Of a DNA stretch of 28,604 bases, positions 1,837 to 26,954 are shown piece after piece. Within the stretch, counting starts at the first letter, position 1. Each line of letters starts with the position of its first letter. The stretch lies in the IMG/VR virus record IMGVR_UViG_3300008110_000301, positions 1-28,604 of that record. The stretch is one strand, 5' to 3'. A model generated the notes under the pieces. That model did no database searches. It worked only from the letters and a program-made list of their open reading frames with translations, and was not told the DNA's origin. The translations under genes were made by a program, and so were the position numbers. The DNA comes from a virus.

Positions 1837-3978
1837 ATGGCCATGAACATGGAGGCAATGCTCAAGATTCGAGCAAATGTCGTCGGAGAGAACAATATCC
1901 GCCGCCTTGGCAACTCCATGCAGGGAGTCCAAGGGCAGGTTAAAAATCTTGCAATGTCATTTGACGGCTTGCGCGCAGCCGTTGGCGGAGTCGCCGGTCT
2001 GATCGGTGGCGGTTTGATCATTAACAAAATTTTCGGAGATGCAGCGACACTAGAGAGCCAGGCTCGCAGTCTGCAGGTGCTAACCGGCAGCGCGACTCAG
2101 GCATCTCAAATCATTCGAGAACTGCAAAGCTATGGAGCACTGACTCCGTTTGAGTCGACTGAACTGATCGAGACGGCAAAGCGCCTAAATGCTTTTGGAG
2201 TTGAATCGAATCGAGTTGTTGATGTTGTAAAAACGCTCGGCGATGTAGCTGGCGCAACCGGCGCCAACTTAGGCGAACTCGCGACGGCCTATGGCCAAGT
2301 GGTTGCCAAAGGGCGACTGCAAGGCGAGGAGCTACTGCAATTCCAAGAGCGTGGCGTTGCGCTCTCGGCTGAGTTGCAGAAAATGTATAAGCTGCAAGGC
2401 CAAGAATTTACCAAGGCACTCGAAGGTGGAAGAATCAGCGCCCAGGCTGTTGAGGTTGCCATTCAGCGTCTTACCGCTGCCGGCGGCAAATATGCTGATG
2501 GTGCCATTGCTCAAAGCGATACCCTAAACGGCAAATTTAGCACACTAAAAGATAACATTACAGGTCTCTCGCAAACGATCGGAACAGTCTTGGGTCCGGC
2601 TGTTAAAAGAATCTTAGATTTAGCAATTAATGTAATTGATACAATCAATAAGGCCATCAAGCTGGCAATCAGTGGTCCTCAGCAGGCGGAAGCAACAGCA
2701 TCCGTTCGAGCCGGGCAGTTGCCATTTGGTGGACCCGCTGCCATCGATCGCATCATTGGCGAGCAGCGTCGGCGAGCGCTTCAGAGGCAAGCAGGGAGCG
2801 CCTTTTTAGGTGTTGGTTTTAATGAGCAAAACTTCATCAAATTGCTACAGCAGCAGCCTGAATTTTCTGCTCGCGGACAACGGCGCGCCGCGTTGCCAGC
2901 CATTCCCCCATTGTTGCCCGGTCGAGCATCAGGCAGTGATGCTGCTGAAAAAGAAAAAGCAGCACAAAAACGTGCTGAGGCTGAGCGTAAGCGAATCGCG
3001 GAAGGCATAGCATCTTCGCGTGAGTCACTAGCGCAATCGAGGGCGGAGCTGGCGATTCTTCGCGAAACCGATCCTCTCAGAAAAATCCAGCTCGAATATG
3101 CAGAGAGGCGCCGAGCCGTCAGCGCCGCGGCCGATAAGGAATTGCGCCAGCAGTTGCCCATTGAACAGCAAGCCAACATCCAGCGCACCAGATCGGTTGA
3201 GATTCAGAAGCTGCAAGTTCAAGAAACCAATGCGCTCATCGAGAAATTCAAGGAGCTGAAGGGCGCCGGCTTCGAGGCCGGCATGAGCGGAGAGCTGTTC
3301 TATGCGTCTGTACAGAAAACAACGTCGGCAATGGAAGACTTCCGTGCTGGCATCGGTTCCTACATTGAAAGCATCGGGACACTGGGCGCCAACCTGAGCA
3401 ATGTCACTCAGACCGCTTTTAAGGGTCTCGAGGATGCCATTGTCTCCCTGACCACTACCGGCACCTTTAGCTTCCGTCAGTTTGCACAATCCATCATCGA
3501 GGAGATCACCCGCATGGTCACCCGAATGCTGATCATTGCGCCTCTACTGCGATCTGTGCAGAGCATGTTCGGCGGTGGTGGCGGGGGCGGCTTGCTTGGA
3601 GTGGCCAGCACGCTGAGCAAGACCATCGGCTTCGGTGCTAGCGCGATGGGCAACGTCTTCGCCCAGAACGGCATCCAGAAGTTCGCCCGTGGCGGCATCG
3701 TCGACAAGCCAACGATGTTCCCCTTCGCCAATGGCATCGGCCTGATGGGCGAGGCCGGACCTGAAGCGATCATGCCATTGCGCCGTGGCCGTGATGGTCG
3801 CCTTGGTGTGCAGGCTGCGAACGGTGGCGGTGCGGTGAGTGTGACGGTGAACGTCGATGTTGCTGGCTCTAACGTGCAAGGCGACGGCAATCAGGCCAAC
3901 CAACTTGGTAAGGCCATTGGCATCGCGGTCCAGCAGGAACTGATCAAGCAGAAACGACCAGGAGGCTTGCTCAACTAA
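1837..3978 (+). CDS. H: Tape measure protein
   Basis: This 713-residue protein starts at ATG 1837, eight bases after an AGGGGG ribosome site (1823-1828). It sets tail length and probably helps DNA entry. The N-terminal part has the TMP repeat-type helical domain ('LNAFGVESNRVVDVVKTLGDVAGATGANLGEL...' about residues 110-170), with a hydrophobic segment near residues 46-67. A charged coiled-coil region follows (about 365-470). The C-terminus carries the lambda-type signature FARGGIVDKPTMFPFANG...MGEAGPEAIMPLRRG (about 610-655). By the lambda ruler rule of about 0.15 nm per residue, the tail would be roughly 100 nm long. The first two thirds use more AT-rich codons than the GC-rich C-terminal third, suggesting mosaic ancestry. 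Confidence 0.92.
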   Translation: MAMNMEAMLKIRANVVGENNIRRLGNSMQGVQGQVKNLAMSFDGLRAAVGGVAGLIGGGLIINKIFGDAATLESQARSLQVLTGSATQASQIIRELQSYGALTPFESTELIETAKRLNAFGVESNRVVDVVKTLGDVAGATGANLGELATAYGQVVAKGRLQGEELLQFQERGVALSAELQKMYKLQGQEFTKALEGGRISAQAVEVAIQRLTAAGGKYADGAIAQSDTLNGKFSTLKDNITGLSQTIGTVLGPAVKRILDLAINVIDTINKAIKLAISGPQQAEATASVRAGQLPFGGPAAIDRIIGEQRRRALQRQAGSAFLGVGFNEQNFIKLLQQQPEFSARGQRRAALPAIPPLLPGRASGSDAAEKEKAAQKRAEAERKRIAEGIASSRESLAQSRAELAILRETDPLRKIQLEYAERRRAVSAAADKELRQQLPIEQQANIQRTRSVEIQKLQVQETNALIEKFKELKGAGFEAGMSGELFYASVQKTTSAMEDFRAGIGSYIESIGTLGANLSNVTQTAFKGLEDAIVSLTTTGTFSFRQFAQSIIEEITRMVTRMLIIAPLLRSVQSMFGGGGGGGLLGVASTLSKTIGFGASAMGNVFAQNGIQKFARGGIVDKPTMFPFANGIGLMGEAGPEAIMPLRRGRDGRLGVQAANGGGAVSVTVNVDVAGSNVQGDGNQANQLGKAIGIAVQQELIKQKRPGGLLN

Positions 3979-4313
3979 TGACCACCTTCACCTACACGCC
4001 CAGTTTCAGCGCTGATTTATCGGAGGCGCCTACGGTGCGCACCGTTAAGTTCGGCGATGGATATGAGCAACGTCTTGCCTATGGCTTGAACACACAACCA
4101 AAGACCTGGCAGCTTCAGTTCAGCAATCGAGACGATACCGAACGAGACAACATCCTCACCTTCCTACGCGCTCGAGGTGCTACTGAGTCGTTTGACTGGA
4201 CTGATCCGAATAACTATGCCGGCAAGTGGGTGTGCAGCGAATGGCAGACCAGTCAGGTGAGCTGCAACTTCAACAACATCACAGCCACCTTCCGTCAAGT
4301 ATTTGAACCCTGA
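3978..4313 (+). CDS. M: Minor tail protein M
   Basis: This 111-residue protein begins MTTFTYTPSFSADLSEAPTVRTVKFGDGYEQRLAYGLN, the hallmark start of the phage minor tail protein M family (Phage_min_tail). It contains the 'TFLRARGATESFDWTDP' segment and ends in a beta strand (ATFRQVFEP). Its ATG overlaps the tape measure stop by one base (TAATG), implying translational coupling. In lambda, M is part of the tail tip assembly pathway and is added before L. Length matches the family. Confidence 0.9.
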   Translation: MTTFTYTPSFSADLSEAPTVRTVKFGDGYEQRLAYGLNTQPKTWQLQFSNRDDTERDNILTFLRARGATESFDWTDPNNYAGKWVCSEWQTSQVSCNFNNITATFRQVFEP

Positions 4314-5929
4314 TGGCGTATTCAGCCTGGGCTAGTTCAACCGTATACGTTGTTGGCAACATTGTCCGCGCCAGCAGCCTGCCCGGCACCGGCTTGGTGT
4401 TCAAGTGCATTGCGGCTGGTACGTCCGCCGCAACGGAGCCGACATGGCCAACGGTTATTTACACAACGCAAACGCTTGACGGCACCCAGTCCAATAAGGT
4501 CGGCTTTGTCGTAGATGGCACGGTGACGTGGGCGGCAATCATGGCCGTCTCGCAGGATCTCCAAGGCGCTGCACTATCGTCAATTATTGAGCTGTTTGAA
4601 CTGCAGCTTGATGCCACCCTGCATGGTGCCACTGATGTGTATCGCTTCCACGCTGGCGCCAATGCACTGAACACGCCAGGCGATGTGATCTGGAATGGCA
4701 ACGGCTACTTGCGCTATCCCGTGCAGGTCGAAGGCTTTGAGTGGAACGGCCAAGGTCAACTGCCGCGCCCGAAGCTGTCAATTAGCAACCTTGCCAACAC
4801 CATCAGCGCCCTGTTGTTGATCGTCAACGAGGAGACGCCTAACAACGATCTCATCGGCGCAAAGCTGACACGTATCCGCACGCTGGCACGTTATCTCGAC
4901 AACGTGAACTTTGAAGGTGGTGTGAACCCCAGCGGTGCTGTTGATCCCACCGCTGAATTTCCGCGAGACATTTACTACATCGCCCGCAAGTCAGCCGAAA
5001 ACCGCAACGTCGTTGAATTTGAGTGTGCCGCTGCATTTGACCTGCAGCACGTCAAGGCACCCCGCCGCCTGTGCATCAACAATGTGTGCCAGTGGACCTA
5101 CCGTAGTGCCGTTGGCTGTGGCTATGACCCAACGCAGATTGGACCGTTCTGGACCGCTGCCGATGAACCCGCCACCGAGCTGGCAACTGATGTATGCGGC
5201 AAACGACTTAGCAGTTGTATTTTGCGATTTGGTGCGGTTGACGTTCACGGTGATGTCACTAGCGGCAGCAATCTTCTTACAAATCTGACGACAGAAGAGC
5301 TAAACCGTATCCATATTGGCGATCCGATCAAGGGACTAGGTATTCCTACTGGTACAACGGTCACGGCGAAGGCGGATACCCAGCTCACCCTGTCCGCCAA
5401 TGCCACGGCAACAACCCTGATCACACGCAACGGCACGTTGACCGCCAAGGGCACTCAGATGACAGTCGCCAGCGTGACTGGTTTGGCTGCTGGCATGACC
5501 ATCACCGGCACCGGAGTCCCCACTGGCACGACCATCAAAAGCATCTCCGGCACCACGCTGACGCTAAGCATCGCCAGCAACAGCAACTACCTAACATCGC
5601 CAGTCACAAAGACTGTGCAGTACAAAGTTGTCGGCGGGAAGCCTCGTCTTTATATGTCCGACACCAGCAGCATTGCAGCAGGCAATCCAGTAACAGGGAG
5701 CGGCATCCCGACTGGCACAGAAGTTGTCGGCATTAGCACCAATAAGTTTGTTGAACTTACGAGCGAAACAAGTGCAGTGCAAAATACCAACTTCACGGCA
5801 ACGTTCTACACGCCGGCAACTTTTACATCGCAGAGCTATCAGTTCCGCGTTGATGATCGTTATGTAATTCGCCCTGATGGCATCTTGCCCTTTGGTTCGT
5901 TCCCCGGCGTTGGCACCATCAAGACATGA
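4313..5929 (+). CDS. L: Minor tail protein L with N-terminal binding-type domain and a large C-terminal insertion
   Basis: The protein has 538 residues against about 230 for lambda L. Residues 1-80 form an extra module ([14 protein letters not shown]...[12 protein letters not shown]...DGTVTWAAI) of the kind found on phage virion proteins and often suspected of carbohydrate binding. The L core follows (about 83-307), with Cys at 254, 259, 269, 295 and 302, four of which should hold the iron-sulfur cluster known in lambda L. The conserved C-terminal tail [10 protein letters not shown] is at 525-534, but about 215 residues with three beta-type repeats (GIPTGTTV at 343-350, GVPTGTTI at 401-408, GIPTGTEV at 464-471) are inserted before it. 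The start overlaps the M stop. Confidence 0.88.
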
Positions 5930-22930: not shown

Positions 22931-24283
22931 ATGCAGCTCCGCACTTATCAGCAGCGCGCCATCGACGATCTGCGCAATGCCTACCGCTTTGGCTATCGGG
23001 CGCCACTGCTATGCCTACCGACCGGCGGCGGGAAGACCATCATCTTCACCGCCATCGCGCAGGCCTCAGCCGCTCGAGGCCGCCGTGTGCTGATCTTGGT
23101 GCATCGCCGTGAGCTACTCCGCCAGGCCAGCGACAAGCTGCGATGGGCAGGCCTTGAACATGGCCTGATCGCTGCAGGCATCGAGCCATCTGAGGCGCCC
23201 GTGCAGGTGGCCTCAGTCCAGACCATCGCGCGCCGCCTGTCAGCCATTGACTGGCAGCCGGACCTGATCATCATCGACGAAGCGCATCACGCCACTGCAG
23301 GCCAGTGGGAGCGCATCCTGCAACATTGGCCAGCCGCCTACCGCCTAGGTGTCACCGCCACGCCATGCCGCCTCGATGGCCGCGGCCTCCGCAGTGCGTT
23401 CGATCACTTAGTCCTCGGTCCATCAGTTGCTGAGCTGATAGACGCTGGCTACCTCAGCAATTCCCGCATCTACGCGCCACCACTGGTGGCCGATCTATCC
23501 GGCATCCGTACCCGAGCCGGCGACTATGCCAACGATCAGGCCGCGGCGGCCATGGATCGCCCAACCGTCACAGGTGATGCCATTGCGCACTACCAGCGGC
23601 TCGCTGCAGGCCAGCAGGCGATCGCGTTCTGCTGCAATATCGCCCACGCCAAATCCGTTTGCGCTGCGTTTCTGGCCGCAAGCATCCGCGCGGTACTACT
23701 CCTTGGTACCACTACCGACCGCGATCAGGTCGTTGCAGACTTTGGCGCCGGCTTGGTGCAGATATTGGTGACCGTCGATGTTGTCTCCGAAGGCTTTGAT
23801 GTGCCCGCTGCCAGCGTTGCCATCCTGCTGCGCCCCACCAAGTCCCTTGGCCTCTACCTACAGCAGGTCGGGCGCGTACTCCGCCCAGCCCCTGGCAAGC
23901 AGGCTGCGCTCATCCTCGATCACGTCGGCAATGTCACCCGACACGGCTTCCCAGATGATGCCCGTGACTGGACGCTCGACGATGGCATCAAGCGCACCGC
24001 AGGCACAGCAGCGCCATCAGTGCGCACATGCCCCGAGTGCTACGCCGCTTTCAAGCCGCAACCGATCTGTCCCGTTTGTGGCGCTAATTGCGCACCGATC
24101 ACTAACCGCAAGATCCGCCAGCTAGCAGGTGAACTGCAGGAGCTGAAGCGGAGCGAGATGCGGCAAGCACGCCGCAAGCAGGGCACCGCTCGCACCCTCG
24201 AGCAGCTTCTCGCCTTGGCCAATGAGCGCGGCTACAGTCCCGGCTGGGCGTACCGGATCTTCCACGCGCGTGGCAAACGCTGA
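22931..24283 (+). CDS. Superfamily II DNA/RNA helicase
   Basis: This 450-residue helicase starts MQLRTYQQRAIDDLRNAY (Q motif region). Motif I is PTGGGKT (30-36), motif II DEAH (116-119), motif III TAT (142-144) and motif VI QQVGRVLR (311-318). A four-cysteine zinc site follows (C367, C370, C380, C383), then a basic helical C-terminus. The architecture matches phage replication or recombination helicases of the RecG/UvsW-like SF2 group. It opens the rightward replication module and is followed by a VRR-NUC nuclease and primase, so it probably remodels forks or recombination intermediates. Confidence 0.92.
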   Translation: MQLRTYQQRAIDDLRNAYRFGYRAPLLCLPTGGGKTIIFTAIAQASAARGRRVLILVHRRELLRQASDKLRWAGLEHGLIAAGIEPSEAPVQVASVQTIARRLSAIDWQPDLIIIDEAHHATAGQWERILQHWPAAYRLGVTATPCRLDGRGLRSAFDHLVLGPSVAELIDAGYLSNSRIYAPPLVADLSGIRTRAGDYANDQAAAAMDRPTVTGDAIAHYQRLAAGQQAIAFCCNIAHAKSVCAAFLAASIRAVLLLGTTTDRDQVVADFGAGLVQILVTVDVVSEGFDVPAASVAILLRPTKSLGLYLQQVGRVLRPAPGKQAALILDHVGNVTRHGFPDDARDWTLDDGIKRTAGTAAPSVRTCPECYAAFKPQPICPVCGANCAPITNRKIRQLAGELQELKRSEMRQARRKQGTARTLEQLLALANERGYSPGWAYRIFHARGKR

Positions 24284-24620
24284 GACCGACATTCAGCAGC
24301 GCATCCGCTTGGCAGTTGGCACCCGATCCGATCTCCGCCTGTTCCGCAACAACACCGGCACCCTGCCCGATCCACGCACTGGTCGACCTGTGCAATTCGG
24401 CCTGGCGCGCGGCTCCGCAGACCTGATCGGCTGGCGCACCGTCACCATCACCCCCGAGATGGTCGGGCAGCATATTGCAGTCTTTACCAGCATCGAAGTG
24501 AAGACCACCACAGGCCATCTCACTCCAGCGCAGCAAGCCTGGATGGGCACCGTCCGCACAGCCGGTGGCATCGCTGGCGTGGCGCGCTCAGTTCGAGACG
24601 CAGAAGAAATCTTGGGATAG
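24270..24620 (+). CDS. VRR-NUC domain nuclease
   Basis: A GTG start at 24270 (14-base overlap with the helicase) gives 116 residues; an ATG at 24222 would overlap by 62. The family core is present: ETDIQQRIRLAVG, LRLFRNNTGTL, FGLARGSADLIGW with the catalytic Asp, IEVKTTTGHLTPAQQAW with the E-x-K pair and Gln, then AGGIAGVARSVRDAEEIL. VRR-NUC proteins are PD-(D/E)XK nucleases that cut branched or flap DNA. Pairing with an SF2 helicase is common in phages and suggests joint work on replication intermediates. Confidence 0.85.
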   Translation: MANAETDIQQRIRLAVGTRSDLRLFRNNTGTLPDPRTGRPVQFGLARGSADLIGWRTVTITPEMVGQHIAVFTSIEVKTTTGHLTPAQQAWMGTVRTAGGIAGVARSVRDAEEILG

Positions 24621-24622
24621 CT

Positions 24623-24639
24623 TGCCAACCTTGCTAACC
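24623..24639 (-). repeat. Two tandem GGTTRGCA repeats upstream of the primase gene
   Basis: Read on the minus strand, GGTTAGCA (24632-24639) and GGTTGGCA (24623-24630) are nine bases apart in the 52-bp gap before the primase. They match the GGTCRGCA units found downstream of the same gene, in the opposite orientation. They may be binding sites for a replication initiator or regulator. Confidence 0.5.
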
Positions 24640-24672
24640 TCAAGCAGTATCTAACGGCCTTGAATCCGTCAG

Positions 24673-26775
24673 TTGTCATCCCTGCTCGATCAGCTAGCCG
24701 CACTCCCCGATCACTGGGGGTTCGTTGCAGTTGGCCACGGCAAGCGCCCCTACCAATCCGAGTGGCAGAAGAACCCCCTCACCAAGCAGCAGCTCACCGT
24801 TGAGATCGACGCCGGCCGCGCAGTTGCTATCGGCGTCATCGCCGGTCCCCAGTCCGGTGGCCTGCTATTCGTTGATCACGATGGCATCAGCGCCGGCGAG
24901 ATCCTCGACAAGCTCGGCGTTCCCCTGCGCGATCTGCCCAAATCCTGGGCAGTCACCTCAGGCCGTGATGGTCGCCTGCAGATCATCTACCAAGTCCCGG
25001 AACAGTACTGGTCTGGCATCCGTACCCGGAAATTTAAGACCGGCAAATCTGATGAGGAGGGCAAGCCTGAGCAGCTTGAACTGCGCTGGACCGGCTGCCA
25101 GTCCGTTGTCGCTGGCGTCCACCCAACCACTGGCGCGTATCGCTGGCTGAAGGGTCGTGAACCTAGTGACCTGCCCCTCGCGGAGGCACCCATTGCGCTA
25201 ATCGAGCAGATGTTGCCGCAGGAGCCTCCTGCGCCGCAGCCATTGCTGCCCGTACCCCCGCTCCGTCAATCAGATCGCACCGATGAAGACTGGGCACGCA
25301 TCTGGCTCGATGCGCTCAGCTCCTCCCGTGCGGACGATTACGACTACTGGATCGAGGTTGGTCAATGCCTCCACAGCGTTGGCGAGCACATGCTGGCCGA
25401 CTGGGAGGCCTGGTCTCGGCAATCAGCGAAATGGGAGGCTGGCACTTGCGAACGCCATTGGCGCAGCTTCACCGCAGACGGCAAGCGTGATATTCGCCAT
25501 CTGTGCAACCTCGCCAAGGAAGACGGCTGGCAACCGAAGCAGCGTCAGCTGCCCCCAGTGCAGTCCAGCAAGCCAAGCGCACCAGGACAGCAGAACGACG
25601 CTGCGCCCATTGCTGACAAGCCGCAGAAGCTGGAGGCCAAGGAGCTACTAAACATGCTCCGCCATCCCGGCAAGGATGGCCTGCCACGCTTTCGCTACAA
25701 CATCTTCACCCAGCAGATCGAGATCCACGGTGATGTAGCCGAAGGTGTTGAACGTTTCTACCTGCAACTCGCGCAAGAGGGCTACAAGGTCTCCAAGGAG
25801 ATGGCACTCGACTGCCTCGTGGAGGTAGCGCGCGAGAACCCATACGACCCCGTGAAGCTCTACCTCGAGCACGTTGCAGCAGAGGTGCCCCCCACCTACA
25901 TCGATCGCCTTGCATCGACCTATCTCAGACCTGTCGATGCCGATCTGAAGGAGCCGACGCTCTACGACATGATGCTCAAGAAGACGCTGATCGGTGCAGT
26001 CCGGCGCATCTTCGAACCTGGCTGCAAGCACGACTATGCCTGTGTGCTGATGGGTGATCAGGGCGCCCGCAAGTCATCGTTCTGGGCAGCGCTCGGTGGT
26101 CCCTTTTTCTCCGATGCGCTCCGCGACATCAGCTCCAAGGATGACCTGATGGTCCTCCATCGCTCCTGGATCATGGAGTGGGCAGAACTGGATCACATCA
26201 CCAGCAAGAAACACGCCGGTCAGGTGAAGGCCTTCCTCAGCCAGTCCACCGACATGTTCCGCGTGCCCTACGGCAAGGCCACTGAGGCCTTCCCCAGGCG
26301 CTCGATCATTGTCGGCTCCACCAACCGCGAAAGCGGCTTTCTCGTCGATGAAACAGGCAACCGCCGCTTCTGGGTGATCCCTGTTACCTGCACCATCAGC
26401 AAACCCATCGATGTGCCAAATCTGCTGCTCGAGCGCGATTCGATCTGGTCCGCCGCAGTCGCCGCCTACTTGGCCGGTGAGGCCAATGAGCTGGCCGTTG
26501 AGCACCAGGCTGCCGTCGAGGCCGAGAACATCAGCTATCTGGTCGAGTCGCCATGGTCGGCACCCATCCAGAAATGGCTGACCGTCAACCTCGGCAGAGC
26601 CATCACCAGCGAGGTGCTGCTCAACGAGGCGATCCTCAAACCAGTCGAGCGGCAAACCAGATCTGACCAGATGCAGGTTGCGACCATCTTGAGAGACCTG
26701 GGATACCGAAAGCGGCGGCAGACCATTGATGGCGCTCAGAAGTGGGTGTTCTTCCAACCTGCTGAGCAGAGGTAG
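24673..26775 (+). CDS. PrimPol-PriCT-VapE primase-helicase
   Basis: A TTG start gives 700 residues. Residues 10-175 look like a bifunctional primase-polymerase domain, with the metal pair D68-H-D70 (LLFVDHDG). A PriCT-2-like domain follows (about 203-285: WARIWLDALSSSRADDYDYWIEVGQCLHSVGE). A linker leads to a VapE/D5-like helicase domain with Walker A GDQGARKS (461-468) and the acidic 'WIMEWAELD' (499-507). It should prime and unwind at the phage origin. No DNA polymerase gene is seen, so the host enzyme or this PrimPol must do synthesis. The gene is flanked by GGTNRGCA repeats. Confidence 0.9.
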   Translation: MSSLLDQLAALPDHWGFVAVGHGKRPYQSEWQKNPLTKQQLTVEIDAGRAVAIGVIAGPQSGGLLFVDHDGISAGEILDKLGVPLRDLPKSWAVTSGRDGRLQIIYQVPEQYWSGIRTRKFKTGKSDEEGKPEQLELRWTGCQSVVAGVHPTTGAYRWLKGREPSDLPLAEAPIALIEQMLPQEPPAPQPLLPVPPLRQSDRTDEDWARIWLDALSSSRADDYDYWIEVGQCLHSVGEHMLADWEAWSRQSAKWEAGTCERHWRSFTADGKRDIRHLCNLAKEDGWQPKQRQLPPVQSSKPSAPGQQNDAAPIADKPQKLEAKELLNMLRHPGKDGLPRFRYNIFTQQIEIHGDVAEGVERFYLQLAQEGYKVSKEMALDCLVEVARENPYDPVKLYLEHVAAEVPPTYIDRLASTYLRPVDADLKEPTLYDMMLKKTLIGAVRRIFEPGCKHDYACVLMGDQGARKSSFWAALGGPFFSDALRDISSKDDLMVLHRSWIMEWAELDHITSKKHAGQVKAFLSQSTDMFRVPYGKATEAFPRRSIIVGSTNRESGFLVDETGNRRFWVIPVTCTISKPIDVPNLLLERDSIWSAAVAAYLAGEANELAVEHQAAVEAENISYLVESPWSAPIQKWLTVNLGRAITSEVLLNEAILKPVERQTRSDQMQVATILRDLGYRKRRQTIDGAQKWVFFQPAEQR

Positions 26776-26778
26776 GCA
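26771..26778 (+). repeat. Single GGTAGGCA repeat unit at the primase stop
   Basis: GGTAGGCA, followed by AGGG, overlaps the primase stop codon (TAG, 26773-26775). It is one base from the units at 26903-26926 and shares their GGCAAGG extension. A degenerate inverted copy (GGTTAGAA on the minus strand) is at 26817-26824. Confidence 0.4.
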
Positions 26779-26846
26779 AGGGCAAATCCGCTGCGCTGCA
26801 TGGCTTCTTCCTATCTTTCTAACCTTCTATCCTTTATAAAAGAATA

Positions 26847-26852
26847 TATAAT
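26847..26852 (+). promoter_or_regulatory. Consensus -10 box (TATAAT) upstream of the late genes
   Basis: A perfect TATAAT lies inside the AT-rich core, about 100 bases before ATG 26955. No good -35 hexamer is found 16-18 bases upstream, where the sequence is pyrimidine-rich. In such AT-rich DNA a chance match is possible. Confidence 0.3.
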
Positions 26853-26861
26853 ATAAGAGTA

Positions 26862-26879
26862 GGGGAGGGGGGGGAGGGG
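26862..26879 (+). repeat. G-quadruplex-type G-run
   Basis: GGGGAGGGGGGGGAGGGG has 16 guanines in 18 bases, in runs of 4, 8 and 4 split by single A. It satisfies the four-tract quadruplex pattern and is the most extreme base-composition feature of the window. It sits directly beside the AT-rich core. Confidence 0.7.
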
Positions 26880-26902
26880 TATTTCCTAGCTCCTAAGACA
26901 AA

Positions 26903-26926
26903 GGTCGGCAGGTCAGCAGGTCGGCA
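26903..26926 (+). repeat. Three tandem 8-bp iteron-like repeats GGTCRGCA
   Basis: The units are GGTCGGCA, GGTCAGCA and GGTCGGCA with no spacer, differing by one base. Related units occur at 26771 and, inverted, at 24623-24639. Tandem short direct repeats after a primase gene are typical initiator binding sites. Confidence 0.6.
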
Positions 26927-26954
26927 AGGCCGTGGATGGCGCCAAACTGGGTGC

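Follow-up and report, generated by a model that had tools for sequence, protein, structure and literature searches.

The window analysed here is a virus record of 28,604 bases in which tail and lysis genes are followed by replication genes and which, by gene content, belongs to a siphovirus. Directly 3' of its primase-helicase ORF (24673-26775) lies a gap of 179 bp (26776-26954), the longest internal gap of the window by the gene list used. This locus raises the question of whether the gap is the replication origin of the virus, as proposed in an earlier note made from the sequence alone, and, if so, which protein would recognize it. The closest named relative is Synechococcus phage S-LBS1, with 66% identity in the primase, and bacterial and archaeal genomes yielded a single relative, located in a Cyanobium bin; based on this evidence the host is probably a picocyanobacterium. 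The elements of the locus are the following:

24623-24640, minus strand: iteron pair TGCCAACCT TGCTAACCT with 9-bp spacing, shortly before the primase start
24673-26775, plus strand: primase-helicase gene with Prim-Pol, PriCT_2 and VapE-like helicase domains (Pfam PF09250, PF08707, PF05272) and a predicted C-terminal winged helix; the proposed initiator
26515-26775, plus strand: C-terminal domain of the proposed initiator, a putative iteron-binding winged helix (AlphaFold2 model helix-helix-helix-strand-strand, pLDDT 87.9), which iteron type tracks
26770-26778, plus strand: single iteron AGGTAGGCA overlapping the primase stop codon; of 29 loci checked, 20 have a matching iteron in this position
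26788-26803, no strand assigned: GC-rich box CCGCTGCGCTGCATGG / TGCGCTGCA beside array A, recurring in both element orientations in the alignment of relatives
26811-26834, minus strand: iteron array A, three 8-bp copies AAGGATAG AAGGTTAG AAAGATAG
26832-26857, no strand assigned: AT-rich core, proposed DNA unwinding element, the AT maximum of the window and conserved in relatives
26862-26879, plus strand: G-run GGGGAGGGGGGGGAGGGG, a strict G4 motif
26889-26897, plus strand: conserved box GCTCCTAAG (CTCCTA box) between the G-run and array B
26902-26925, plus strand: iteron array B, three 8-bp copies AGGTCGGC / AGGTCAGC / AGGTCGGC

The earlier note had placed the gap right after the primase-helicase gene, as is the case, and had described a nearly pure AT core and a G-run, both of which turned out to be compositional extremes of the 28.6-kb window: its most AT-rich 27-mer (24/27, within 26828-26861), its most G-rich 19-mer (16/19, from 26861), its longest G-run (eight, at 26867) and its sole strict G4 motif are all located in the gap. 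Two other descriptions held in part. The "pyrimidine tract" is indeed the most pyrimidine-rich 33-mer of the window (28/33, from 26803), but what had been missed is that it contains an iteron array on the minus strand (array A), with repeats of the same type as those of array B. In the "three exact tandem 8-mers" (array B), copies 1 and 3 are identical while the middle one carries one mismatch. The resulting layout is that of two inverted arrays of three iterons of about 8 bp each, with the AT core between them and the G-run and CTCCTA box on one side.

That no other gap of the window has this structure was confirmed by two approaches. A degenerate pattern for a pair of inverted three-copy arrays has a single match in the window and five in the 889 kb of sequence from relatives, each of them within 300 nt past the primase stop, and a family profile built from relatives only, leaving out the window and locus L005, matches the window solely at 26784-26940 (E=1.4e-34; next best, E=0.4). 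A strict motif-free scan of the window alone, allowing one mismatch, detected no array pair because the two arms differ in sequence; the degenerate pattern or the family profile is required to detect it.

Comparison with relatives was one of the checks suggested in the earlier note. The set comprised 82 loci (80 IMG/VR loci retrieved with the primase as query, S-LBS1 and the Cyanobium locus), and the element lies 3' of the primase in 82/82, having been located in 62 by the profile (E<1e-3 on either strand) and in the rest by the motif-free array scan or by eye. Iteron pairs are concentrated at the same position, with 63 found within 440 nt past the stop, 11 around the start and 5 elsewhere in 775 kb. 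The CTCCTA box pattern gave 20 matches in IMG/VR, 17 of them at 116-138 nt past a primase; the remaining three, with no primase, lie near or within unrelated phage genes and were discarded as chance matches. Relative to the gene, an inverted orientation of the element is found in one large clade as well as in two loci (L019/L021) placed inside the clade of the window; when a profile was built exclusively from inverted relatives, its matches in the non-inverted ones were on the opposite strand. The genes downstream of the element vary among relatives.

Both by sequence (E=5.5e-26) and by fold (E=1.3e-12), the best match of the primase in the PDB is 7pds, PriRep1 bound to dsDNA, evidencing homology to the Rep/PriRep helicases of the staphylococcal pathogenicity islands (SaPI). 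The last 75 residues of the primase are predicted to form a winged helix; the matches from a fold search with this domain include several winged-helix regulators, but all are weak (none with E<0.001). In SaPI the origin is located directly downstream of the initiator gene and contains short iterons, and the C-terminal domain is the part that binds them, while in the SCCmec helicase Cch2 the isolated C-terminal domain binds repeats behind cch2's own gene (PMC7581432). The window and its relatives share with SaPI the position behind the initiator helicase gene and the multiple short iterons, which in the window are three plus three, unique there. Unlike SaPI, the source is a tailed cyanophage and no satellite island, as the record carries tail and lysozyme genes; its iterons, of 8-9 bp with the form GGTNRG, make up two inverted arrays, and the G-run and CTCCTA box are present on one side only. 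In this family, either orientation of the element with respect to the gene occurs, and the Prim-Pol domain is fused to VapE.

If the C-terminal domain binds the iterons, both should change together. Over 57 loci, iteron type correlates with the C-terminus given the rest of the primase (partial Mantel r=0.46, p=0.0002) and shows no correlation with the rest of the primase given the C-terminus (r=-0.08, p=0.95). The L019/L021 loci provide a natural case. Most blocks of their primase share ~80-97% identity with the window group, and the last one (~60 columns) switches to the sequence type of L036/L037/L068. The N-terminal part groups with the window clade (support 99), and an AU test rejects joining it to the donor clade (p=1e-52); conversely, the C-terminal 75 amino acids group with L036/L037/L038/L042/L068 (support 98), and the window clade is rejected (p=0.008), the groups for both tests having been picked after the identity profile was seen. 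In L019/L021 the element is inverted as in the donors and its iterons are of the donor type; the iteron pair preceding the primase gene also belongs to this new type. On these trees and alignments, the C-terminal domain and its matching inverted putative origin were exchanged together in one lineage nested in the window clade, and such a linked swap of domain, origin and iterons is what is expected if the domain binds the iterons. Coevolution and swap agree with the C-terminal domain as the putative iteron-binding part of the initiator. For a second candidate, the L060 group, the tree hints at a swap and the AU test was not significant (p=0.216).

Altogether, fixed position, inverted arrays around an AT core, coevolution with the C-terminus and homology to PriRep1 argue, with high confidence, that the element, a stretch of 160 bases, serves a cyanobacterial siphovirus as its replication origin and that the adjoining Prim-Pol/VapE protein is the initiator that would bind the inverted arrays and melt the AT core. 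The best reading, based on sequence comparison, would be a SaPI-type iteron origin for a self-loading Prim-Pol/VapE initiator in a cyanophage near S-LBS1. According to this model, the C-terminal winged helix would bind both iteron arrays, whose inverted arrangement suggests two oppositely oriented hexamers, probably one loaded per arm, with the AT core melting between them; the VapE motor would then unwind outward, in a presumably bidirectional movement, while the Prim-Pol domain primes. The G-run might keep the bubble open or direct priming.

Other functions have to be considered for an element located where replication genes give way to tail genes. The earlier note had mentioned that it could act as the switch to late genes, and control of transcription, as terminator of the early operon and/or promoter of the following late genes, would be compatible with that junction as well as with the presence of an AT-rich core and a G-run. 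A search covering sigma-70-like promoters detected no such promoter and no terminator in the element, its RNA folds no better than shuffled sequences (z -0.11) and an Rfam search gave no match. Furthermore, neither the inversion of the whole element in many relatives, nor the variable genes downstream, nor iterons that follow the primase C-terminus would be expected of a transcriptional switch, and this explanation is considered very unlikely. A packaging (cos/pac) site preceding terminase and HNH genes is suggested by the terminase genes that come next in S-LBS1 and by an HNH gene two genes further on in the window; nevertheless, the same architecture precedes early genes in other VapE phages (e.g., VRR-NUC, helicase) and the element travels with the primase C-terminus, so that a role in packaging appears extremely improbable.

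The iteron pair before the primase start, which about 10 relatives have in the same position and which is of the new type in L019/L021 and L060, is a candidate operator through which the initiator probably regulates its own gene. It could be argued that the downstream element is likewise a mere operator for gene repression by the primase protein and that the true origin lies elsewhere, since some of the relatives have such pairs ahead of the primase start. However, the upstream site contains neither a second inverted arm nor an AT core, it is the downstream element that is invariably present, and the SaPI precedent places the origin downstream of the initiator gene, which leaves this explanation a slight chance of being correct.

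The GC skew, also proposed as a check of the origin and, if its minimum lay elsewhere, as grounds for refuting it, gave a mixed result. In the window the raw cumulative minimum is located at 26668, close to the element. S-LBS1 and three relatives have theirs no more than about 1.4 kb from the element, another relative has it at a distance of 2.7 kb, and in three more it is far removed. Skew, which is confounded by gene strand, supports the origin in part of the genomes and not in general.

Similar arrangements occur in described phages. In S-LBS1 (MG271909) the same element is found at 34380-34520, between primase and terminase, with three and four iterons of 9 bp, their spacing being 9 compared with 8 in the window; a term search of the paper on S-LBS1 detected no description of the origin. 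The end of this record (L082, 34500-34641) repeats about 34266-34389, which may be a real duplication or an assembly artefact. In Hamiltonella phage APSE-1, the gap after gene P3 contains inverted GTAACAACC arrays that flank an AT core behind a VapE gene, as in the window, but the iteron sequence differs and the primase is only about 25% identical. Streptococcus thermophilus phages of the Sfi21 type reportedly contain a short noncoding element with replication-origin characteristics, judging by the title of a 1998 study by Foley, and another S. thermophilus phage, SW6, shows inverted repeats within an AT-rich gap behind its VapE-type helicase, its arrays not being above shuffles (p 0.097). In origins of the lambda-O type the iterons lie within the initiator gene; this type was rejected for the window, where the arrays are located in the gap after the gene.

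The association extends to distant VapE phages from hosts including Pseudomonas, Marinobacter, Staphylococcus, Corynebacterium, Enterococcus, Paenibacillus, Rhodobacter, Yersinia and Acidovorax, among others. A motif-free scan detected inverted iteron arrays in 15/19 of them (SW6, with the p value given above, is one of the 15), the best array being behind the VapE gene each time, and no arrays in the other four. Over the 97 loci scanned in total, near-copies included, 69 contain any array, and in 65 of these the best one lies in the 900 nt past the gene. In two of the distant phages, those of Enterococcus and Paenibacillus (L089, L090), as well as in the window (22931-24620), VRR-NUC nuclease and DEAD/ResIII helicase genes adjoin the primase, and their order around the origin differs between the window and these phages. 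It can be hypothesized, with about even chances of being right, that throughout the VapE-type phages the origin and the last ~75 residues of the preceding primase-helicase constitute one exchangeable specificity cassette, in which the iterons are matched to the winged helix and the polarity (the side of the G-run) can be flipped by evolution. If so, dozens of natural initiator-origin pairs would make a recognition code readable.

To our knowledge, most tailed phages have no mapped origin, and a rule combining the position behind the VapE gene with iteron reading would allow origin annotation in hundreds of phages. Natural swaps of domain and origin would provide material for studies on origin recognition by a self-loading helicase, and the element may serve as a basis for developing vectors that replicate in picocyanobacteria.

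Two further observations concern the organization of these loci. In L054, L061 and L066 an 83-residue free-standing copy of the primase C-terminal domain is encoded on the far side of the origin (L061:8323-8571); an interrupted primase gene was considered and rejected, since these loci have an intact primase and the additional match corresponds to this separate small copy, which had no match in PHROG and is possibly a regulator or a leftover of domain exchange. Besides, a 73-kb viral contig (L032, G010) encodes two different primases (3139-5169 and 49529-51598), each followed by its own origin type.
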